Below are positions 772 through 52,903 of a stretch of DNA of 64,000 nucleotides, one piece after another. The translations under genes were made by a program, and so were the position numbers. The notes under the pieces are model-generated. The model saw only the letters and a list, made by a program, of their open reading frames with translations. It ran no database searches and was not told where the DNA came from. How positions within the stretch are numbered: position 1 is the stretch's first letter; every line of letters starts with the position of its first letter. Origin of the DNA: a bacterium (GTDB lineage Bacteria; Armatimonadota; Fimbriimonadia; Fimbriimonadales; Fimbriimonadaceae); assembly GCA_027485645.1 (NCBI GenBank), contig JAIXQR010000001.1, positions 427,632 through 491,631 of the forward strand, written 5' to 3'.

Positions 772-3700
772 TTAGATCACGCCGTCAGCGCGAAGTTGCT
801 TATAGTGGCATTCCTTGAACTTGTGCCCGCTGCCACACGGGCAAACGTCGTTTCGACCAACTCGCTTCGCGTCGATATCTTTGGGGAACGGCAAAGTGCC
901 GGGCTCGGCCTTCGTCATCGTTGCAACCCCGCCCGCTTCGCCGCCTTCTGGCAACGCGGGAGCGCCACCAAGAAGATCAAGCTCCAGCGGAGTTGGGTTC
1001 TCGGCCTGAATGTTCAGCCGGAAGATGAGCTTCGCGGCATCGGTTCGGATGCCCTTATCCGTGCGCTGGAAGAGGTCGTAGGTTTCTCGCTTGTATGCGA
1101 CAAGCGGGTCCACTTGACCGTAACCGCGCAAGCTGATGCCGTCTCGAACGTACTCGACCATCTGCAGGTGGTCCATCCAGCGGTCGTTGACCGCCTTGAG
1201 GATCACGAACCGCTCGAGTTCGTTCATCGCGTCCTGGAGCCGAGCGACCTTCTCGTCGTACGCCTTCATGGCGACGCTGTACAGGAACTCAACGAGTTCT
1301 GGTCCAGGCTGGTACTGCTCGAGCTCGCCAAGCGTGACGTGGTCAACCAGCGGGAACAGCTCGTTGGCGTCTTCGAACAGGGCCGAGTGATCGTAGAACT
1401 GCTCGCCGGAGGTCTCATCGACCATCCACGCATCATCCACCAGCTCTGCCATCGCTTCTCGCAGATAAGCCTGCAGCTCCGATCGTACGTCCTTGCCAAG
1501 CAAGACCTCTCGGCGCATGCCGTAGACGTGTTCGCGCTGGGCGTTGAGAACGTCGTCGTATTCGAGAACGTGCTTTCGGGCTTCGAAGAAGTGGTTCTCG
1601 ATGCGCTGCTGGGTCTTCTCGATCATGCGCGAGAGGAATCGGGTGTCCACCATTTCCATCGGTGGCCACATCTTGAGCGCCGGGTTCTCCATCATGTTCG
1701 CGTTAAAGATCTTCCAGAGGTGATCTTCTAGCGCGACGAAGAAGCGGGACTCGCCGGGGTCGCCTTGTCGTCCGGCTCGTCCTCGGAGCTGGTTGTCAAT
1801 TCGTCGAGATTCGTGTCGTTCTGTACCCAGAATAAAGAGTCCACCAAGGGCGCGAACCTCTTCGGCAGCGGCTCTTCGCTCTTGGTCATCAAGCGGAAGC
1901 GGCGGAGCGGCTCGCTCCATGCCTCCACGGCGGAAGCTCACGTACGTGTCGCCGTATTCGTCGAGTCCGTCCTGGGCAACTTCCGTCTGGGCACGCGCTT
2001 GTCGCACGAGCTCGTCCTCAACGCGCCCGCCAAGGAGAATGTCAACACCTCGACCGGCCATGTTGGTAGCGATCGTGACGGCTCCCTTTCGTCCGGCCTC
2101 CGCGATGATGACGGCTTCGCCTTCGTGGTTCTTCGCGTTCAGAACGTTGTGCGGAATGCCGTGCTTCAGGCCCTCGCGTAGAAACTCCTCGGCTTCGCTC
2201 GGAAGTTTGAATTCGTTCAAGCACCACGAAATGTGGTCACCCTGGAAGACATCGGCCGAAAGGTCGATCTTCGCAAGCAAAGTGTTCAGACTCTGTCGAT
2301 CGATGTCGGGCAGGTTCGTTTCGTAGAGTCGCTTGGCTTCGGCTCCGTTTTCGCCCTTGAGATCCTTCTTGATTTCAACTCGCTCTCGGAGTCGATAGAT
2401 CAAAACCAGTCGCTGAAGCATGTCGCCGGTCAATCGCGCGGAGACTCGCTCAGACATTTCGATGGATCGAGTTCCAACGAGAACCGGCTGCTGCTTGGAG
2501 TAAAGCCGAAGCAATTCCCAGCCGATGCCGCGGAACTTCGCCTCGATCGTCTTGTAGATGAGGTCGGCGCGGTCTTCTCGCTTGCTAGGTCGGTGAGTTG
2601 GGACCGAAACAACGTCAAGGCCGTAAATCTTTCGGAATTCGTCCTCTTCCGTCTTTGCGGTACCGGTCATACCGGCGAGCTTTTCGTACAGTCGGAACAG
2701 GTTCTGGAAGGTGATGGTTGCGACGGTCTGGCTTTCGCGCTGGACGGTCACGCCTTCTTTCGCTTCGAGAGCCTGGTGCAGGCCATCGCTGAAGCGGCGA
2801 CCGAACATCATTCGACCGGTGTTCTCGTCAACAATCACGACTTCGCCCGATCGAACAACGTAATCAATGTCCTTGTCGAACAGCGCGTGGGCTTTGACGC
2901 TCGCGTTGACGTGGTGGAACAGTCGCGGATCGGCGGCGATGTTCTCAATCTCCATCATCTGCTCGATCATGTCCATGCCTTCTTCGGTAAGGCTGGCGCT
3001 GTGGTTCTTCTTATCGGCGGTGTAGTGGACCTCCGGTTGAAGCTGCTTGACGTACTCGTTGACCTTCGCGTATACGCTTACGTCCTCGTTCGAAGGTCCG
3101 CTGATGATGTGCGGCGTTCGCGCTTCATCAATGAGGATCGAGTCGACTTCGTCAACGATCGCGAAGTTCAGTTCGCGCATGACGAGCTCGCCTTCGCTGA
3201 ACGCCATGTTGTCGCGCAGGTAGTCGAAACCGAACTCGTGGTTCGTTCCGTAAACGATGTCGCAACCGTACGCATCGCGGCGTGAGCAAGGGACCAGGTT
3301 CAGATACCGCGGGTCCTCCATCGCGTTCGCGCCGGGCACGTACAGGTAAGAGCCGCCAAGCTCGTCGCTGTCCTGGCTCTGGCCTTGGATGATGCCAACG
3401 CTCAGGCCCATGAAGTGATAAATCGGACCCATCCAAACGGCGTCACGTCGGGCCAAGTAGTCGTTGACCGTGACCAGGTGAGCTCCCTTGCCGGGGAGGG
3501 CATTCAAAACCATCGGCGCTACGGCAACGAGGGTCTTTCCTTCACCGGTCTTCATTTCGGCGATACGGCCTTGGTGAAGGACGGTGCCACCGATCAACTG
3601 CACGTCGAACTGGCGCATGCCGAGGGTTCGGCGGCTGACTTCGCGAACGACCGCGAAGACTTCGGGCAGCATCTTGTCGAGGCTCTCTCCGCCCAAGACT

Positions 3701-3849
3701 CGGGACCGGAACTCGTGGGCAATGGCCTTGAGTTCATCGTCGTTCAGGTTGGTGTAGTTGGCTTCGAGGCCGTTAATCTTCGTGATGATCGGGGTAACGG
3801 CGTCAACGTCGCGTCGGCTAGTGTCGAAAAGTTTGCGTAAAAAGTTCAT
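772..3849 (-). CDS. secA: Preprotein translocase ATPase SecA
   Basis: SecA is the motor ATPase that pushes unfolded preproteins through SecYEG. The start is placed at ATG 3849 (MNFLRKLFDTSRRD), the usual SecA N-terminus, although the frame is open further upstream; the product is 1025 residues, longer than the typical 840-900. Visible motifs are the Walker A loop MKTGEGKT near residues 99-106, the DEAD-type motif in VDEVDSILIDEARTP near 231, the helicase-like ATNMAGRGVDI and GRAGRQGDPG blocks, and a C-terminal zinc-binding SEC-C motif CPCGSGHKFKECHYK at about 1003-1017. The extra length comes partly from insertions, including a charged one between RVEDELVRQARAQ and VRALGGLFILG. It is followed by a strong terminator. 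Identification is secure; the exact start is slightly less so. Confidence 0.98.
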   Translation of the reverse strand: MNFLRKLFDTSRRDVDAVTPIITKINGLEANYTNLNDDELKAIAHEFRSRVLGGESLDKMLPEVFAVVREVSRRTLGMRQFDVQLIGGTVLHQGRIAEMKTGEGKTLVAVAPMVLNALPGKGAHLVTVNDYLARRDAVWMGPIYHFMGLSVGIIQGQSQDSDELGGSYLYVPGANAMEDPRYLNLVPCSRRDAYGCDIVYGTNHEFGFDYLRDNMAFSEGELVMRELNFAIVDEVDSILIDEARTPHIISGPSNEDVSVYAKVNEYVKQLQPEVHYTADKKNHSASLTEEGMDMIEQMMEIENIAADPRLFHHVNASVKAHALFDKDIDYVVRSGEVVIVDENTGRMMFGRRFSDGLHQALEAKEGVTVQRESQTVATITFQNLFRLYEKLAGMTGTAKTEEDEFRKIYGLDVVSVPTHRPSKREDRADLIYKTIEAKFRGIGWELLRLYSKQQPVLVGTRSIEMSERVSARLTGDMLQRLVLIYRLRERVEIKKDLKGENGAEAKRLYETNLPDIDRQSLNTLLAKIDLSADVFQGDHISWCLNEFKLPSEAEEFLREGLKHGIPHNVLNAKNHEGEAVIIAEAGRKGAVTIATNMAGRGVDILLGGRVEDELVRQARAQTEVAQDGLDEYGDTYVSFRRGGMERAAPPLPLDDQERRAAAEEVRALGGLFILGTERHESRRIDNQLRGRAGRQGDPGESRFFVALEDHLWKIFNANMMENPALKMWPPMEMVDTRFLSRMIEKTQQRIENHFFEARKHVLEYDDVLNAQREHVYGMRREVLLGKDVRSELQAYLREAMAELVDDAWMVDETSGEQFYDHSALFEDANELFPLVDHVTLGELEQYQPGPELVEFLYSVAMKAYDEKVARLQDAMNELERFVILKAVNDRWMDHLQMVEYVRDGISLRGYGQVDPLVAYKRETYDLFQRTDKGIRTDAAKLIFRLNIQAENPTPLELDLLGGAPALPEGGEAGGVATMTKAEPGTLPFPKDIDAKRVGRNDVCPCGSGHKFKECHYKQLRADGVI

Positions 3850-3926
3850 GTGGGTATGCCGGAAAAATTCCGTGGGTAGTTCGAACGCAAGGCGTTCGAG
3901 AGGGATCCGAGGGAGCAGGGTTTTGC

Positions 3927-4220
3927 TCAGGCAACGGGTCCGGCACGGTTGCGGCGGCACTTACGACGGCCAGCCACTTCACTTGCGCACTCATCAGATT
4001 CGATTCGAGTGCTGGTTTGCTTTGGCGCTTGCGCGGCAATAGGCTCCGGCTTGGCCGGGGTTTCGGGCATCTCGCGAGAGATTTCGTTTACCCACGCCAG
4101 CGTCAAACTTCGGCTCATGCGGCTGATGGCGAGTTGCCGAGCCGCGTCCGAAACGCTTGGGTCGTGTGCCCATGTGCCCTGCCAAAGGATCAGGAATAGG
4201 GCGGGAAGAAACGAAAACAT
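3927..4220 (-). CDS. Small exported protein, unknown function
   Basis: A 97-residue product starting at ATG 4220 with a hydrophobic leader (MFSFLPALFLILWQGTWA) that looks like a signal peptide, then a polar region (SDAARQLAISRMSRSLTLAWVNEI) and a proline-, lysine- and arginine-rich tail ending in RRKCRRNRAGPVA. It lies between the 100-residue membrane protein gene and secA, all in the same direction, about 78 bases before secA. I recognise no family. The frame is open further upstream, so the start is uncertain, and a non-coding alternative cannot be excluded. Confidence 0.45.
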   Translation of the reverse strand: MFSFLPALFLILWQGTWAHDPSVSDAARQLAISRMSRSLTLAWVNEISREMPETPAKPEPIAAQAPKQTSTRIESDECASEVAGRRKCRRNRAGPVA

Positions 4221-4281
4221 GCGACTCACTATTATGACGCTTGCCGAGCTTTGCCGATGACGGGGCCCACTGACGGGCGAC

Positions 4282-4584
4282 CTAGGCGCCGTTCTTTGGA
4301 CCCTGGGCCGGATGTGCCGCCGCGGCAATCAGGTTTGCGCCACGGTTGGCGATCCAACTCCCGACCGCTCCCATCACCAAAAGCAATACGATTCGAATCA
4401 GGATGCCCGCCAAGTTGGTCTGGGCCGCGTTGTAATCGATCGCTTTGCCGGTCTGTACACCAAGGGCCTTGGCCGGTGGAGTTCCAAACATCTCAAGCGC
4501 GAGTTGGAAGGTGTAGCCAAGGATTGCGACGCCACCTAAAAAGGTGAGAAGTCCGAGCACCATGCTTAACGGATCGCGTCTCAT
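4282..4584 (-). CDS. Small two-helix membrane protein, unknown function
   Basis: A 100-residue protein starting at ATG 4584 (MRRDPLSMVLGLLTFLGG). Two hydrophobic segments are visible, about residues 7-30 and 57-76, the second containing LAGILIRIVLLLVMGAVGSW. It lies 36 bases downstream of the MFS transporter gene on the same strand and probably shares its transcript. No known family is recognised. Confidence 0.65.
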   Translation of the reverse strand: MRRDPLSMVLGLLTFLGGVAILGYTFQLALEMFGTPPAKALGVQTGKAIDYNAAQTNLAGILIRIVLLLVMGAVGSWIANRGANLIAAAAHPAQGPKNGA

Positions 4585-4620
4585 GTTGGGATTATGGCGA
4601 GCTTCGCCCGGACTTGTTCC

Positions 4621-5895
4621 CTAGGCTTCTACAATTGCCGCTTCAGCGGCCGCCGGAGTCTTCAGCGTCCATGCCGCGATCGCCGGGAACAGGATCACCG
4701 CCGCACCTAACAGGTACGGATATTCGGGTCTTGCCGCGAAGAGCGGATTGCCAATGATCGGTCCCACCAACCGCGCCAGCGCGCCCAATGATTGCGTGAT
4801 CCCAAAGATCCCTCCCTGGATTTGCGCTGGCGCATTGCGCGAAACCAAGCTGGAAAGGGAAGGCTGCGAGAGTCCGCTTCCGAAACCTTGCAACACCACC
4901 ACCGCGATGACGGGAAGCCAAAGCGGAGCGTATGGGACAAGCGCAAGCGCTGGAACCAGCATCAACATGCCGACTCTCAAAAGGTTGATTTCTCCAAACC
5001 TTGCTTGAAGCTTAGGTAGCAACCCACCTTGGATCAATGCGCCGCTCACCCCGACCACGCCGAGGATGTAGCTTCCGTACTCCTTTGCCTCTTTCACGCT
5101 GAGGTGAAATACCGATCGGGGATCGGCCAGCAAACGGAAGAAGGTTGCCTGGAGCATCGCAAAGCCGAAGTTGAAGGCAAAGAACATGCAGAGCAACAGC
5201 ACCAATCCCTTGGTCGAGAAGGCGATTTGCATCTCCTGCATCCAAGAGGCGCGCTTGATCTCCGTGCCCGGCTTCAGGCTCTCAGGCAGGCCGAACATGA
5301 TGTAGAACGCATTGATCAGTGCGAGTCCCGCTCCGACGTAGCCGAGAATCATGGGCGAGTCGTTGCCGACTCGGATCAGAAGGCCGCCGATGACCGGCCC
5401 GAGAATGAATCCCATCCCCAAGGCAGCTCCGACCATGCCAAGTCCCTTAGCTCGTTCTTCCGGCGCGGTGACGTCCGCAACGTAGGCAAACGCGACCCCA
5501 AGGTTTGCCGCCGCAATTCCGGCAAGAAGACGACTTCCAAGCGAAAGCCAAAACTCGGTTGCATTGGCGTAAACGATGTAGCTCAGGACGGAGAGGATAG
5601 TCGTGGCGAGCAGGATCGGGCGTCGCCCGATGCGGTCGCTGAGCCGGCCAAGGATCGGCGAGGCAAACAGCTGGCACAGGCTAAATCCAGCAATGAGGAG
5701 GCCAACCATGTAGCCGACTTCCCGATTTGAACCCGCTTGGTCCAAAGGAATCTTCAGCATCTTTGCGGCCAACGACTCCCCGCGGAGTTGCAAATCTGGA
5801 ATGAAGAGCCCGAAGCTGAACAAGTCTAAGAAGACGGTGAGCAGAATCCCAAGGAGCAGGGAACGGGAACGCGGGCCGGTGGCTGACTCAGACAT
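4621..5895 (-). CDS. MFS transporter, tetracycline-exporter-like
   Basis: A 424-residue major facilitator superfamily protein, probably a proton-driven exporter in the inner membrane. About twelve hydrophobic segments are visible. The MFS motif between helices 2 and 3 reads GRLSDRIGRRPILL, and the TetA-like helix 5 motif reads GAALGMGFILGPVIGG. The loop ADVTAPEERAKGLG is also typical of the TCR/Tet group (DHA1). Substrate is unknown, and resemblance to tetracycline exporters does not show drug export. It is first in a minus-strand run ahead of the 100-residue membrane protein, and is divergent from the sugar ABC transporter gene starting at 6004. Confidence 0.88.
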   Translation of the reverse strand: MSESATGPRSRSLLLGILLTVFLDLFSFGLFIPDLQLRGESLAAKMLKIPLDQAGSNREVGYMVGLLIAGFSLCQLFASPILGRLSDRIGRRPILLATTILSVLSYIVYANATEFWLSLGSRLLAGIAAANLGVAFAYVADVTAPEERAKGLGMVGAALGMGFILGPVIGGLLIRVGNDSPMILGYVGAGLALINAFYIMFGLPESLKPGTEIKRASWMQEMQIAFSTKGLVLLLCMFFAFNFGFAMLQATFFRLLADPRSVFHLSVKEAKEYGSYILGVVGVSGALIQGGLLPKLQARFGEINLLRVGMLMLVPALALVPYAPLWLPVIAVVVLQGFGSGLSQPSLSSLVSRNAPAQIQGGIFGITQSLGALARLVGPIIGNPLFAARPEYPYLLGAAVILFPAIAAWTLKTPAAAEAAIVEA

Positions 5896-6003
5896 GGGGT
5901 GTACTGGAGATTGTACTGGGTCGTCTGAACATTGCAGTGGTCTGCGGATTCAAGAATTCGTATTCTCAAGTCTGCGACGGTGTTGTATAGTGGAACCGAC
6001 CAG

Positions 6004-8454
6004 ATGAGATGCCGACGTCCTATCCTGGCCGCGCTCGGGTGCGCACTTGCAACATTTGCATGGGCTGCGCCTTCCGATCCCGGCAGCGTGAGCCCAAAAC
6101 GAGACCTTGTGATCTGGGGCGTGAGCATTGGCGCAGATTCAAAAGGTCAAAGCGCCGTCATCCGGGAGTTTGAGAAGCGCAACCCCGATGTTCGCGTCCG
6201 CATTCTCAGCATGGGCGCGGGCCAGATGGACCCCCAAAAGCTGATGACGAGCATCGTTGGCAACGTTGCGCCAGACGTGATCAACCAGGACCGATTCACG
6301 ATCGCCGACTGGGCCAGCCGCGGGGCGTTCCGCTCCCTGGATGACCTCATCGAACGCGACAAGGGGAAGGATCCGCTCACCCCAAACGTCTCCGACTATT
6401 ACGAAGCGCCTTGGAAGGAGGCGATGTATGACGGAAAGGTCTACGCCATTCCAACTGCGGCAGACAACCGCATCCTGTACTGGAATCGCAAAATCTTCCG
6501 CGAACAAGCCGATGTTCTGAAAGCCGCCGGGCTCGACCCGACGAGAGCTCCTCGAACCTGGACCGAAATCCTTGCCTACAGCAAGGCCCTCACGATTCGT
6601 AACAGCGACGGCTCCCTGAAACGCGCCGGATTCATTCCGAATTTCGGCAACTCGTGGCTGTACCTTTACTCGTTCCAGAACAACGCCGACTTTATGACGG
6701 CCGACGGCAAGAAGTGCACCCTCTGCACTCCAGAAAGTGAAGAGGCGCTGAACTTCATGAAGGCCGGTTACGAGCTTCTCGGAGGTTACGAGAACGCCAA
6801 ATCGTACGAGTCCGGCTTCCTTGGAAAGGAGAACGATGCGTTCATCACCGGCAAGGTCGCGATGAAGATCGATGGCGACTGGATCCTCAACGATCTGTCG
6901 CGATATGCGCCTCAGCTTGATTTAGGCGCGTCTCCGCCGCCGGTACCGGATGATCGCTACAACAAAGTCGGTCGGTTCAAGGACGAGAAAGACACCTTCA
7001 TCACCTGGTTCGGTGGCTACTCCCTCGCGGTGCCCCGCGGCGCGAGAAACGTTGAGGACGGTTGGGAGTACATCAAGTTTGCGACCAGCACCGAAGGTCG
7101 GATGATTGAGTACTCCGCTCAGCGAGACTGGGAGCGTCGGCGGGGCCGGACCTTTATCCCGCGAATGCTCGCAAGCCGCGATGCGAACGAGGAGTCCTAT
7201 CGGCGATTCAAGCCGGCCGACAAAAAGTTCGCCGCCGCGCTAGCGATGCACATCGAAATGGCACCGTTCGGCAAGGTTCGACCGGCAACGTTTGTAGGCC
7301 AAACCTTGTGGAGCGAGCACGTCAAAGCCATGGAAGCCGCTTTGTACGGAAAAGCCAGTTCCAGGGATGCGCTTGTGGCCGGGCAAATGGCGGTTCAGCG
7401 AGAGCTCGACGCTTTCTACAGCAAATCGAACTACCCGGTCATCGATCTCGCCATTCCAACTTACATCGCAGTTGGCGTTCTCGTCATCGCACTTGTCATT
7501 GGTGGCATTTGGTTTTCTAGACTCAAACTCGGGCGGCTGGCGAAGAACGAGGCCATGTGGGCTTACCTGTTTGTCGCACCCTGGGTCATCGGCTTTGTCG
7601 TCCTGACTTTGGGCCCGATGATCGCGTCGCTGTTCTTCAGCTTCACTCAGTACGACGTTTTGAACGAAGCGCGCTGGGTTGGGCTCCGGAACTACCAGGA
7701 GATGTTCACCAGCGACCGCACAACGGTTCTGAAGGCTTTCAGTAATGCGGCCTACTTAGCTATCGTCGGGGTTCCACTCGGCCTAGCAACGGGCCTCGCG
7801 GTGGCCATGCTACTGAACGTTTCCACCAAGGGGATGCGGTTCTACCGAACCCTCTTCTACATGCCCGCTATCGTCCCGGTCGTCGCAAGTGCGGTGCTTT
7901 GGACTTGGGTGCTCACCCCAGATCCGAGCAAGGGGCTTATCAACTCATTCTGGAAAGAGACCTTAACGGCCTGGTTGGCCGTGCCGCCTCCGACTTGGCT
8001 TCAGAGCGCCGACTGGGCAAAGAACGCGTTGATTTTGCAGGGACTGTGGGGCGCAGGAAGCGGGATGCTCTTGTGGCTCGCGGGACTGAAGGGCGTTTCG
8101 ACGACCCTGTACGAAGCCTCCGGTCTGGATGGCGCAACCCCAAGGCAGCAGTTTTGGAACGTGACGTTCCCGATGCTGACTCCGATCGTATTCTTCAACT
8201 CAGTCATGGGCTTCATCGGTGCCATGCAGGAGTTCGACCGGCAATACGTCATGAAGCCCTCGAAAGATGGCCCGATCGGACCGGATGACGCGCTCTTGAC
8301 TCCGGTGTATCACCTCTTTCGAAACGGTTTTGCCTTTTTTAAAATGGGCTACGCCTCCTCTCTCGCCTGGTTGATCTTCGTGGTCATCATGGTGCTGACC
8401 TTCACCCAGTTCCGGCTGCAAGATCGCTGGGTCCACTACGAGACAGACAAGTGA
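6004..8454 (+). CDS. Fused sugar-binding protein and MalF-type ABC permease
   Basis: One 816-residue polypeptide carries two normally separate ABC-importer parts. Residues 1-21 are a signal sequence (MRCRRPILAALGCALATFAWA). Residues 30-475 are an extracellular family 1 solute-binding domain (VIREFEKRNPDVRVRIL; YAIPTAADNRILYWN). A membrane segment at about 484-503 leads into a MalF-like permease at about 513-816, with the EAA loop ASGLDGATPRQQFWNVTFP near residue 706, which contacts the ATPase. The substrate should be a sugar or oligosaccharide. The stop codon overlaps the GTG start of the next permease by four bases (GTGA), so the two are translationally coupled. No ATPase gene is adjacent, so a shared MsiK-type ATPase elsewhere is likely. 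Start at ATG 6004 is chosen for the signal peptide. Confidence 0.9.
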   Translation: MRCRRPILAALGCALATFAWAAPSDPGSVSPKRDLVIWGVSIGADSKGQSAVIREFEKRNPDVRVRILSMGAGQMDPQKLMTSIVGNVAPDVINQDRFTIADWASRGAFRSLDDLIERDKGKDPLTPNVSDYYEAPWKEAMYDGKVYAIPTAADNRILYWNRKIFREQADVLKAAGLDPTRAPRTWTEILAYSKALTIRNSDGSLKRAGFIPNFGNSWLYLYSFQNNADFMTADGKKCTLCTPESEEALNFMKAGYELLGGYENAKSYESGFLGKENDAFITGKVAMKIDGDWILNDLSRYAPQLDLGASPPPVPDDRYNKVGRFKDEKDTFITWFGGYSLAVPRGARNVEDGWEYIKFATSTEGRMIEYSAQRDWERRRGRTFIPRMLASRDANEESYRRFKPADKKFAAALAMHIEMAPFGKVRPATFVGQTLWSEHVKAMEAALYGKASSRDALVAGQMAVQRELDAFYSKSNYPVIDLAIPTYIAVGVLVIALVIGGIWFSRLKLGRLAKNEAMWAYLFVAPWVIGFVVLTLGPMIASLFFSFTQYDVLNEARWVGLRNYQEMFTSDRTTVLKAFSNAAYLAIVGVPLGLATGLAVAMLLNVSTKGMRFYRTLFYMPAIVPVVASAVLWTWVLTPDPSKGLINSFWKETLTAWLAVPPPTWLQSADWAKNALILQGLWGAGSGMLLWLAGLKGVSTTLYEASGLDGATPRQQFWNVTFPMLTPIVFFNSVMGFIGAMQEFDRQYVMKPSKDGPIGPDDALLTPVYHLFRNGFAFFKMGYASSLAWLIFVVIMVLTFTQFRLQDRWVHYETDK

Positions 8455-49858: not shown

Positions 49859-50351
49859 GCGCCTACGCTACCGGATGACGACTTATTGACCGCAACTTCG
49901 GCCTCGCCGACTCCGACATCGGCCTTAACACTCGCGACCACTGCACCAACGCAAAGGTCGAAGGCAATCCATCACCACTATGCCCTTCGAAGAAACTACT
50001 TGGAAGGTGCTGCTTGCGGTGCATGATATGAATTCAACGGAATAAGCCGTTGAGACGGGATGAACGGATATCTTGATCGAATCGTGCCATCAGCTGGACA
50101 GTCCTTCTGACCAGCACGGGCTCACTACAGGAGTGTTATTGCGATCAAGTGACTGGCGCTTAGGGAACGCTGGCCGTGGAACGATAAATGCGCGCTTGTG
50201 GCTTTAGTACGCGGCTTGGGCAGGTCCAGTCATCTGGAGGCACGGTATTCTGTCCGGTCCGTCTGAGAAACGTAGCAAGACTATAAAGACCGGATGCGCA
50301 TCGCAGATTTTAGGCGACGAGTGCAATACCAGAGCGAGTTCGTCTACCATA
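49859..50351. other. 493-base gap before the Dam-type methyltransferase gene
   Basis: No ORF with plausible codon use or start was found. The sequence must hold divergent promoters for the membrane-protein gene (minus) and the methyltransferase (plus); TATAAA at 50281 is a weak candidate for the latter, without a matching -35. No repeat, tRNA or attachment site is recognised. It marks the left edge of a stretch that looks acquired. Confidence 0.4.
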
Positions 50352-50951
50352 GTGAATCAAATGAGCGCAGGAAGAACCGTAAACTCTCTTAGCCAGGACT
50401 GGGGCACTCCTCGCAAGTACGTCGCTGCTGTGCGAAAGGTATTTGGTGGGATGATTCATTTAGATCCGTGTTCAAATAAGACGTCGATCGTAGAGGCGTG
50501 TACAGAGTACTGCTTGCCGGATCAGGATGGATTGGAACTCTCTTGGAATTTTCCGACCATTTATGTCAATCCCCCGTATGGTCGTGACGCCGAGCGCGGT
50601 ACTACGATTAAAGATTGGTTGCGGCTTTGTGCCCAGGCACATGCGCATCATGGTTCGGAGGTCTTGGCCCTAGTACCAGTCGCGACGAACACACGCCATT
50701 GGAAAGATTATGTTTTTGGAGCTGCCACTGCAGTGGCCTTTCTATACGATACTCGGCTCCGGTTTCTGGAGAACGGCAGCGAAAAGGGGAAGGGAGCTCC
50801 TATGTCATGCGCCATGGTGTACTGGGGGCGAGACTTCGATACCTTTTGCGCAGAATTGTCGCCATATGGCGCAGTCGTAGATCTTCAACCTCTGATTGGT
50901 AAATCTCATGGCCATAGTCGGCACGCAAAGCAGATGGAGATCGCACTATAG
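50352..50951 (+). CDS. Phage-type DNA N6-adenine methyltransferase (Dam family)
   Basis: A 199-residue methyltransferase counted from GTG 50352, or 196 from ATG 50361. The cofactor-side motif is HLDPCSN (about residues 37-42), the catalytic motif IV is VNPPYG (about 72-77), and DWGTPRKYVAAVRKVFGG is the typical N-terminus of the phage Dam family. It would methylate adenine in a short site in double-stranded DNA. Its last bases overlap the convergent gene at 50946-51947 by six bases. Its codon use is visibly less G+C-biased than in neighbouring housekeeping genes, suggesting horizontal transfer. Confidence 0.88.
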   Translation: MNQMSAGRTVNSLSQDWGTPRKYVAAVRKVFGGMIHLDPCSNKTSIVEACTEYCLPDQDGLELSWNFPTIYVNPPYGRDAERGTTIKDWLRLCAQAHAHHGSEVLALVPVATNTRHWKDYVFGAATAVAFLYDTRLRFLENGSEKGKGAPMSCAMVYWGRDFDTFCAELSPYGAVVDLQPLIGKSHGHSRHAKQMEIAL

Positions 50952-51947
50952 CTTTTTTGAAGCCATCCGTGCGATGTGCTCCTCGAGGATGCATCGAAGG
51001 TCTGGGCCTTCGGGACCAGTTAGATGCGTCAGGTCACTATTCGATACTTCGAAGTCATCCACGGTCATTTTGGTGAGGCCCGGAAAATATGCGTTAAAGA
51101 ATGTCATAAAAGGCACCCCAGCCAAACTAGCCTTTTTCTTAACGTAGTCGCAGTAGCGGATAATAGAATCATCTTTAATTAGGAAGCCGGCATCGACATA
51201 TGTCCCGAGCACCTTGCGGGATTTCAACTCCCAATGCACTCCGTTACCCACAACTACGATCGAAAGGTATGCAGCTAATTCGTCTTCATCACGTTGTTTT
51301 TTTAAGTTTCCGTTGATTCGCAGGTCTAGGTCAACGGCTACTAGTGCCGTTTGCTTAGCTTTTTCAATCGTCTGAATTCCCGCACCTAGTTTGTCGCTGT
51401 CGGCAAACCGTTGAGCACCAACGCGCTTGCTCTCGACAGATGCGATGACCTTCTGCAAGTCGAGCAGAGTTAGTTGCGCACCACTATCGGCTGTGCCTCT
51501 AAGTTTCACAAGGACTCCCTCGGCGGCGAATAAATCACGCGCCTTTGCGGCTCCAAACGTATCTTCAATAGACAGCTTGGCTGTGCATTTGGATGAACTG
51601 CCAGTGCTGGCATCGTTCCAACGAAGGCCAATCGTAGCGTTGTGGGAAGAAACTGCCTGTAGGGTCATTTCTACTCCTCCGTAAGCTTGGGGCTTTCCAA
51701 CTTCCAAATTAAGTTCATCAGCAATTTCGTAAATAACAAATTCGATTTTATGCTTGGCTCCCGATAGCCCTTCGACTAGTGTTTCGATAAGCATGCGGCG
51801 GCGAATTTCATAGGAAGTTTCTAGATATTTGCGTAGCATCACTTCTTGAAGTACACCGATCTTTCTGCCGATCGTCCGATTGTTTTGCACGTTCGAGTGC
51901 TCTTCGAAGTAATAGAAAATCTCTGAAATGCGGGGATCTTTCTCCAC
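50946..51947 (-). CDS. Possible type II restriction endonuclease partner of the Dam-type methyltransferase
   Basis: A 333-residue protein from GTG 51947; an in-frame TAA four codons upstream fixes the start. I do not recognise a family. Two stretches could hold a PD-(D/E)XK-like active site: LLDLQKVIASVESKRVG (Asp163, Glu172, Lys174) or VHWELKSRK. The N-terminal GRKIGVLQEVMLRKYLE resembles segments often seen early in restriction enzymes. The location, convergent with and overlapping a DNA adenine methyltransferase gene, is the main support for a restriction-modification role. Base composition is low in G+C like its partner. It could equally be an unrelated accessory protein. Confidence 0.45.
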   Translation of the reverse strand: MEKDPRISEIFYYFEEHSNVQNNRTIGRKIGVLQEVMLRKYLETSYEIRRRMLIETLVEGLSGAKHKIEFVIYEIADELNLEVGKPQAYGGVEMTLQAVSSHNATIGLRWNDASTGSSSKCTAKLSIEDTFGAAKARDLFAAEGVLVKLRGTADSGAQLTLLDLQKVIASVESKRVGAQRFADSDKLGAGIQTIEKAKQTALVAVDLDLRINGNLKKQRDEDELAAYLSIVVVGNGVHWELKSRKVLGTYVDAGFLIKDDSIIRYCDYVKKKASLAGVPFMTFFNAYFPGLTKMTVDDFEVSNSDLTHLTGPEGPDLRCILEEHIARMASKKL

Positions 51948-52447
51948 TGCAACAGCTTACACGCTTTGATGCGGCGAGTCGTGACTGCCCAGTCGGAGCA
52001 CCGGTGGCTCTCGTTGTGCACGCGCCCTTCTGAGCGTTCAAGATGAACGACGAACGACACTGACCCACGAACCGGTGGGGTCACTTCACGGCGCCTTCAC
52101 AACCATCACAAGAATTTGAGACGGAATGATCGGCGAAACGGACAAAACTCGACGCGTCATTGCCTGTTAACGGCAAAGTGAAAAATGCACAGCAAGTCGT
52201 TCAGGTGTTCTGTCCGATAACCTTAACTTGGATCTGGCGGGCCCTGGTTCACCACTGCAAGGCAGTCATGTTTAACCTCGGCTCGCTCCTCGAGAAATGA
52301 TCATCCTGCCGTGTATGCACATCCGCCTTCACATTTAGAACCGCGCATGCGCGGGGGCGTACGTTTTCCTGGCCGGCAAGTTATCAGGTTCCTGAAGGAA
52401 AACACGCCAGGGAGGTTCACGATCTGGGGCCAGTTCGCCAGAAGCTA
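51948..52447. other. 500-base gap after the putative endonuclease gene
   Basis: No supportable coding region. A hairpin-like inverted repeat (TGACCCAC/GTGGGGTCA region, about 52060-52083) is present, and the area should contain the promoter of the putative endonuclease on the minus strand. I see no other structure. Confidence 0.4.
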
Positions 52448-52903
52448 CTATTCCAAGACGAATGGTTGACAGGCGATTTCTTCTTTTCTTCGCAACGGAG
52501 CATCGTGAAGCAATACCCAGCACGACGTGAACCCCATGTTCGTAAGGGCATCCGCGCGATGGTTGCCATCCGCCAAGTTGATGACGCCATCTAATTCTCG
52601 CCATGCGATCACCGGCGGAAGGCTGTCCAGCGTGGGGCGGGTATCGACAATCGTCTGTACTGCCCTTGTCCACTCATCAGGATCTTGTGGGTACCGGAAT
52701 GATTCGGATGGTCCGGCGATCCTTTGGAGGCGGGCAATCTCAATGAGTTGGGGCGGCATCCAGGATGAGGAGTAAGTGCGAACACGCCGAAGCAGCCCAA
52801 GATTCTGCCAACTTTCCACTTGCAGATACCTTTCGATCCAATCTTGCCCCTCGCCGCGTTCGAAGGCCATCCGCGCCGATCTCAAGTCCCATTCGTGACT
52901 CAA
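52448..52903 (-). CDS. ParB/sulfiredoxin-like domain protein
   Basis: A 151-residue protein from TTG 52903 (MSHEWDLRSARMAFERGEGQ). The core INLADGNHRADALTNMGF (about residues 109-126) is the ParB/Srx-like signature 'l.DGnHRl.Al...G', preceded by LPPVIAWRELDGV. Proteins with this fold bind nucleotides or DNA; small stand-alone versions are usually of unknown role, often beside accessory DNA. It lies alone on the minus strand with no parA, so chromosome partition is unlikely. Confidence 0.65.
   Translation of the reverse strand: MSHEWDLRSARMAFERGEGQDWIERYLQVESWQNLGLLRRVRTYSSSWMPPQLIEIARLQRIAGPSESFRYPQDPDEWTRAVQTIVDTRPTLDSLPPVIAWRELDGVINLADGNHRADALTNMGFTSCWVLLHDAPLRRKEEIACQPFVLE

Follow-up and report, generated by a model that had tools for sequence, protein, structure and literature searches.

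The window analysed here, a 64,000-nucleotide stretch from a bacterial genome of the Fimbriimonadaceae (Armatimonadota), contains two convergent genes meeting tail to tail: one for a PF05869 Dam-type adenine methyltransferase (Dam) and one for a 333-residue predicted restriction endonuclease (RE). Both open reading frames are present at the coordinates given in Table 1. They overlap by six bases, the palindrome CTATAG, which supplies one TAG stop codon per strand. For the Dam gene, the ATG at position 50361 is probably the start codon and not the GTG at 50352, because related proteins open with M(S/T)AGR. The pair is flanked by gaps of 502 bases (49859-50360) and 500 bases (51948-52447). The GC content is 0.518 for the Dam gene and 0.476 for the RE gene versus 0.570 for the window, and third-position GC amounts to 0.513 and 0.485, respectively, versus 0.57-0.79 in 12 neighbouring genes. 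These results agree with an earlier note on this DNA, which had described convergent genes with a six-base overlap, a lowered G+C content of both and gaps of 490-500 bases on either side.

Table 1. Positions of the features of the RE-Dam locus and of the corresponding cassette in a sister genome
Feature	Position	Strand	Remarks
PF05869 Dam-type adenine methyltransferase, predicted modification enzyme	50361..50951	+	196 aa, family-conserved ATG
Alternative Dam start	GTG 50352	+	199 aa if annotated from there
Dam NPPY, catalytic motif IV	50568..50579	+	residues 73-76 from GTG 50352; invariant in 41 aligned Dams
Restriction endonuclease (RE), distant R.BspHI relative, PD-(D/E)XK type (predicted)	50946..51947	-	333 aa; PADLOC PDLC03437
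CTATAG, both stop codons inside	50946..50951	.	sequence
RE E35, acidic residue, first core helix	51843..51845	-	invariant in 46 aligned sequences; predicted helix 26-43
RE H66-x-x-E69, metal-binding acid of core	51741..51752	-	H66, E69 invariant; predicted strand 65-82
RE E172-S-K174, (D/E)XK motif	51426..51434	-	conserved in clade A; predicted strand 156-174
RE Q192-TIEKAKQ, second core helix	51351..51374	-	conserved; predicted helix 193-211
Exchangeable segment holding the RE-Dam pair	49878..52472	.	blastn edges 49877 and 52473
ietAS-type cassette, sister genome G014	L155 8677-12107		corresponds to window 49878-52472; IetA and IetS profiles

In profile searches, RE matched the PADLOC model REase_II PDLC03437 (E 2.8e-16) as well as profiles built from two clades of its relatives described below, clade B (2.1e-29) and clade A (2.2e-11). 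No Pfam or NCBIfam model matched above its cut-off; DUF6602 (E 0.12) fell below it and was disregarded. The PDLC03437 profile fits a 381-residue 'hypothetical protein' of plasmid pBspH1 from end to end (895 bits), and the neighbour of this protein is a DNA methyltransferase. The host of pBspH1, Acinetobacter sp. NEB 394, was formerly known as Bacillus species H, and the BspHI systems are named after this strain (PMC8259958). Because this strain gives BspHI its name and a methyltransferase adjoins, the 381-residue protein is, judging from names and layout, very probably R.BspHI, the recognition site of which is TCATGA (PMC6449724). By homology, RE is assigned to the R.BspHI family as a distant member of the PD-(D/E)XK type, in place of the new endonuclease family that had been proposed for it.

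Common to the aligned relatives are G27-R28, G31, E35, H66, E69, the ExK motif and QTIEKAKQ. The two PD-(D/E)XK-like motifs suspected in the earlier note were recovered as H66-x-x-E69 and E172-x-K174, both on predicted strands and conserved in the family. The surroundings of the (D/E)XK motif read ESKRVG in RE and ECKRVG in clade A, and QTIEKAKQ is invariant in one alignment save one nearly invariant Ile and fully invariant in a second. The structural model of RE consists of helix 26-43, strands 52-59, 65-82 and 156-174, helix 193-211 and strand 228-234. This order of elements is that of a predicted PD-(D/E)XK core, with E69, E172-x-K174 and Q192-Q199 at the expected places.

The best structural matches of the RE model were NucC, a CRISPR ancillary nuclease and YaeQ (Z <=7.8), and those of a clade-A model (pLDDT 88.5) were PfoI, BbvCI, NucC, Cdn1 and BsmI (Z <=7.1). 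Individually these matches are weak; we give weight not to the Z scores but to the finding that nearly all top rows for both models are nucleases of the PD-(D/E)XK superfamily. Foldseek alone, which had been suggested as a check on RE, returned nothing significant for the RE model or the clade-A model, and no match was obtained when the sequences of solved structures were searched with the RE or Dam alignment profiles. Residues 74-166 of RE (window 51450-51728) form an insert predicted at low confidence (pLDDT about 55-65 over most of the segment) as a beta sandwich resembling alpha-crystallin domains (Z about 5).

With Pfam PF05869, the Dam reaches 56.6 bits (cut-off 28.1); with the equivalog TIGR01712 (phage N-6-adenine-methyltransferase), its 35.6 bits stay below the NCBI cut-off of 97.05. 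Its identity to 40 Dams adjoining related nucleases is 52-67%, while among named phages and plasmids even the closest Dams are less than 40% identical to it. When 291 genomes of the phylum were searched with the Dam as the starting point, three close Dams were found, all three together with RE; among 201 genomes, nine weaker Dams were found, none of them with RE. In the Dam tree (L052 and L043 are one record and were counted once), the weakly supported branch of the window Dam arises near the base, in proximity to both L043 from a restriction-modification pair and L069 from a phage. From these comparisons we place it in the nuclease-linked Dam clade. The earlier view that it could be a phage-type orphan was not upheld, as RE adjoins it here and adjoins the close Dams of the phylum.

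Among 84,980 genomes scanned, 48 relatives of RE were found, and a methyltransferase adjoins each of them wherever the contig continues, the opposite of nucleases found mostly without a methyltransferase. The relatives fall into three clades. Clade A (L009-L049) spans about 18 phyla including archaeal ANME-1, and neither Pfam nor NCBIfam has a model for its nuclease. The Dam gene follows directly downstream in tandem at all 39 loci that do not end at RE, mostly with an overlap of 4-7 bases or within 14 bases. Clade B consists of pBspH1, L003, L004, L005 and L008; the contigs of L006 and L007 break off before a partner could be seen. In pBspH1, L004, L005 and L008, RE is convergent with a PF01555 methyltransferase of the M.BspHI type. 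L003, a Woesearchaeota contig, has a clade-B nuclease, yet its partner is a Dam, which groups with an ANME-1 Dam of clade A (99/92 in the Dam tree).

Clade C comprises the window and L002, a 3.8 kb metagenome contig of a MAG labelled Thermosynechococcaceae. The L002 nuclease is the nearest to the window RE (41% identity over the full length) and is convergent with a 515-residue enzyme of the M.BspHI type, 42% identical to the pBspH1 methyltransferase. The window holds the only convergent RE-Dam pair that was found, and the pairing of these two genes thus rests on one locus. We infer an exchange of the partner because the nearest nuclease is convergent with an M.BspHI-type enzyme where the window has a Dam. 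Along the nuclease tree, the type of methyltransferase needs three changes, all three of which are forced by the starred branches. The simplest reading of these sequence relationships is at least two partner exchanges, one in the window and one in the archaeal L003.

Relatives of RE were also sought among mobile elements. Phage records gave no RE match and plasmids gave one (pBspH1). With the window RE as query, no relative was confirmed on viral contigs; clade-A pairs on the viral contigs L064-L066 and L074 were found via the Dam. The RE-Dam system may also travel on prophages (L064). On this contig, a complete clade-A pair (2835-6181) lies beside an integrase.

Viral contigs moreover carry Dams of the nuclease-linked clade without a nuclease, which are up to 67% identical to the window Dam. 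The phage contigs with such orphan Dams were taken from IMG/VR (L063, L067-L073 and L075-L083), and the neighbours of these Dams include a terminase (L067), a portal protein (L069), a DnaB helicase (L068) and a DNA polymerase (L075). In the Dam tree, viral Dams and those of restriction-modification pairs are intermixed, with about ten label changes. Two phage contigs, L071 (3977-4573 and 6696-7214) and L072 (3926-4558 and 1712-2251), encode two Dams each, one being a member of the nuclease-linked clade and the other ordinary. Cognate orphan methyltransferases are a known tool of phages against restriction (PMC10286901), and we predict that the phage Dams of the nuclease-linked clade possibly serve counter-defence.

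The genomic setting bears on the origin of the pair. None of the 19 further genomes of the genus that were searched contains RE. In the sister genome G014, the flanks are about 80-87% identical and the two equivalent flanking genes enclose an ietAS-type cassette, consisting of an AAA+ ATPase matching IetA (5.2e-71) and a subtilisin-like protease matching IetS (2.9e-34). ietAS is listed among the anti-phage defence systems (PMC10286901). Because G014 has ietAS between the equivalent flanking genes, the site appears to hold exchangeable defence genes and resembles a small hotspot of defence. At the segment ends, no direct or inverted repeats of at least 14 bases were found. The horizontal acquisition suspected in the earlier note is supported by the restricted occurrence of RE in the genus and by the other defence system at the same site in the sister species.

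A search of the host genome, run without a positive control, found no methyltransferase of the M.BspHI type, and the two PF01555 enzymes of the host match the Type III Mod and PglX profiles. This leaves the Dam as the best candidate for the partner of RE in this host. Host contig C1 (L238/L239) carries a Type III restriction-modification system, with Mod and an adjoining helicase-type protein, and a PglX/BREX-like methyltransferase.

The simplest guess for the recognition site of the window pair is TCATGA. Within 400 kb of the host genome, this hexanucleotide is not avoided: 81 instances were seen where 100 were expected, which ranks it 27 of 64. Of the genomes sampled, only that of L004 (G293, clade B) avoids TCATGA strongly, with 12 instances versus 71 expected in the sample and 27 over all 2.3 Mb, as would suit an active BspHI-like system in that genome. 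Among the palindromes of two clade-A genomes, TCATGA was not outstanding. Site avoidance, assessed in pooled clade-A loci and in samples of 400 kb from four genomes, pointed to no single palindrome for clades A or C. Since a nuclease lacking a matching methyltransferase kills its host, the Dam and M.BspHI types of methyltransferase probably protect one common site or a core of it.

Taken together, we consider it highly probable that the pair is a horizontally acquired Type II restriction-modification system in which a BspHI-family RE is combined with a protecting Dam as an exchanged partner. Homology, conserved motifs, gene linkage in the relatives and a different partner at the equivalent position argue for this reading; the restriction-modification pair of the earlier note is thereby supported, and its 'unknown type' gives way to the anatomy of Type II. 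RE would cut a short, probably palindromic site, and the Dam would methylate the adenine within this site or its core, so that host DNA would be protected and the pair could serve in defence. The Dam would be a replacement rather than the ancestral partner, having taken the tail-to-tail position held by an M.BspHI-type methyltransferase in L002. In a wider proposal, to which we give somewhat less than an even chance, one PF05869 Dam clade protects the site of the whole nuclease superfamily (BspHI-like and clade A), can take over the position of the unrelated M.BspHI type at a locus, and gives phages that lack the nuclease a counter-defence against exactly these systems.

The sole occurrence of a convergent RE-Dam pair in the window, the orphan Dams of the same clade on phages, the mixing of viral and restriction-modification Dams in the tree and the weakly supported basal position of the window Dam near both L043 and L069 would also suit a phage-derived orphan that came to lie beside RE by chance, the true methyltransferase being lost or encoded elsewhere. 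We consider this very unlikely: the two genes share a stop-codon overlap, the motifs of both proteins are intact, no other fitting methyltransferase was found in the genome, the close Dams of the phylum all occur with RE, and an active nuclease would be fatal to an unprotected host. The lack of TCATGA avoidance in the host could be read as a sign that the nuclease is methyl-directed (Type IIM or IV) or inactive and that the pair no longer restricts, but RE keeps all family-invariant catalytic positions and its relatives always adjoin a methyltransferase, as is the case in protective Type II systems, which makes this reading most improbable.

A Dam of relaxed or very short specificity that protects against many nucleases would be a mechanistic variant of the preferred explanation and not its opposite. 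It would account for the joining of different nuclease clades and for phage carriage: partner nucleases of the Dam are found in clades A, B and C, phages carry it as an orphan, and non-specific phage adenine methyltransferases exist (Drozdz 2012, as cited in PMC10286901). The strict coupling of the clade-A Dam to one nuclease family suggests a matched site instead, and we regard relaxed specificity as unlikely.

Returning to the preferred reading of a Type II system with an exchanged partner, the window pair is, judged by its sequences, a new variant of the BspHI family with a Dam partner and a convergent layout; no description of an RE-Dam pairing was found in the literature with the terms searched. 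The curated libraries consulted (TIGR01712, PADLOC oMTase) list PF05869 Dams under phage or orphan enzymes. The present data tie these Dams and the clade-A nucleases into a widespread predicted Type II system in about 18 phyla including archaea, and point to an exchange of the protecting enzyme beside a related nuclease. If both methyltransferase types share a site, these loci would be a natural test of a partner change without host death, and the carriage of an equivalent Dam by phages would be explained.

Compared with known systems, the orphan PF05869 Dams of phages belong to the same protein family as the window Dam, and some on viral contigs are 55-67% identical to it, but they have no adjoining nuclease. 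The clade-A pairs share with the window a Dam of 52-67% identity and the motif order and insert position of the nuclease; however, their nucleases are only about 20-25% identical and their genes stand in tandem with an overlap of a few bases, whereas those of the window are convergent. The BspHI system resembles the window in its two convergent genes meeting tail to tail and in its homologous nuclease, the GRxxG-E, HxxE, ExK and Q(T)xEKAKQ motifs being present in both. It differs in a nuclease identity of only about 24% over the length and in the PF01555 partner of the M.BspHI type versus the PF05869 Dam; no HTH regulator gene was seen upstream at the window pair. The extra segment of the BspHI relatives follows the ExK strand, whereas the window RE has it inserted between core strands two and three. 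Finally, L002 agrees with the window in a nuclease of 41% identity and equal length and in an equal convergent overlap, but its methyltransferase is a 515-residue HTH and PF01555 protein where the window has a Dam.
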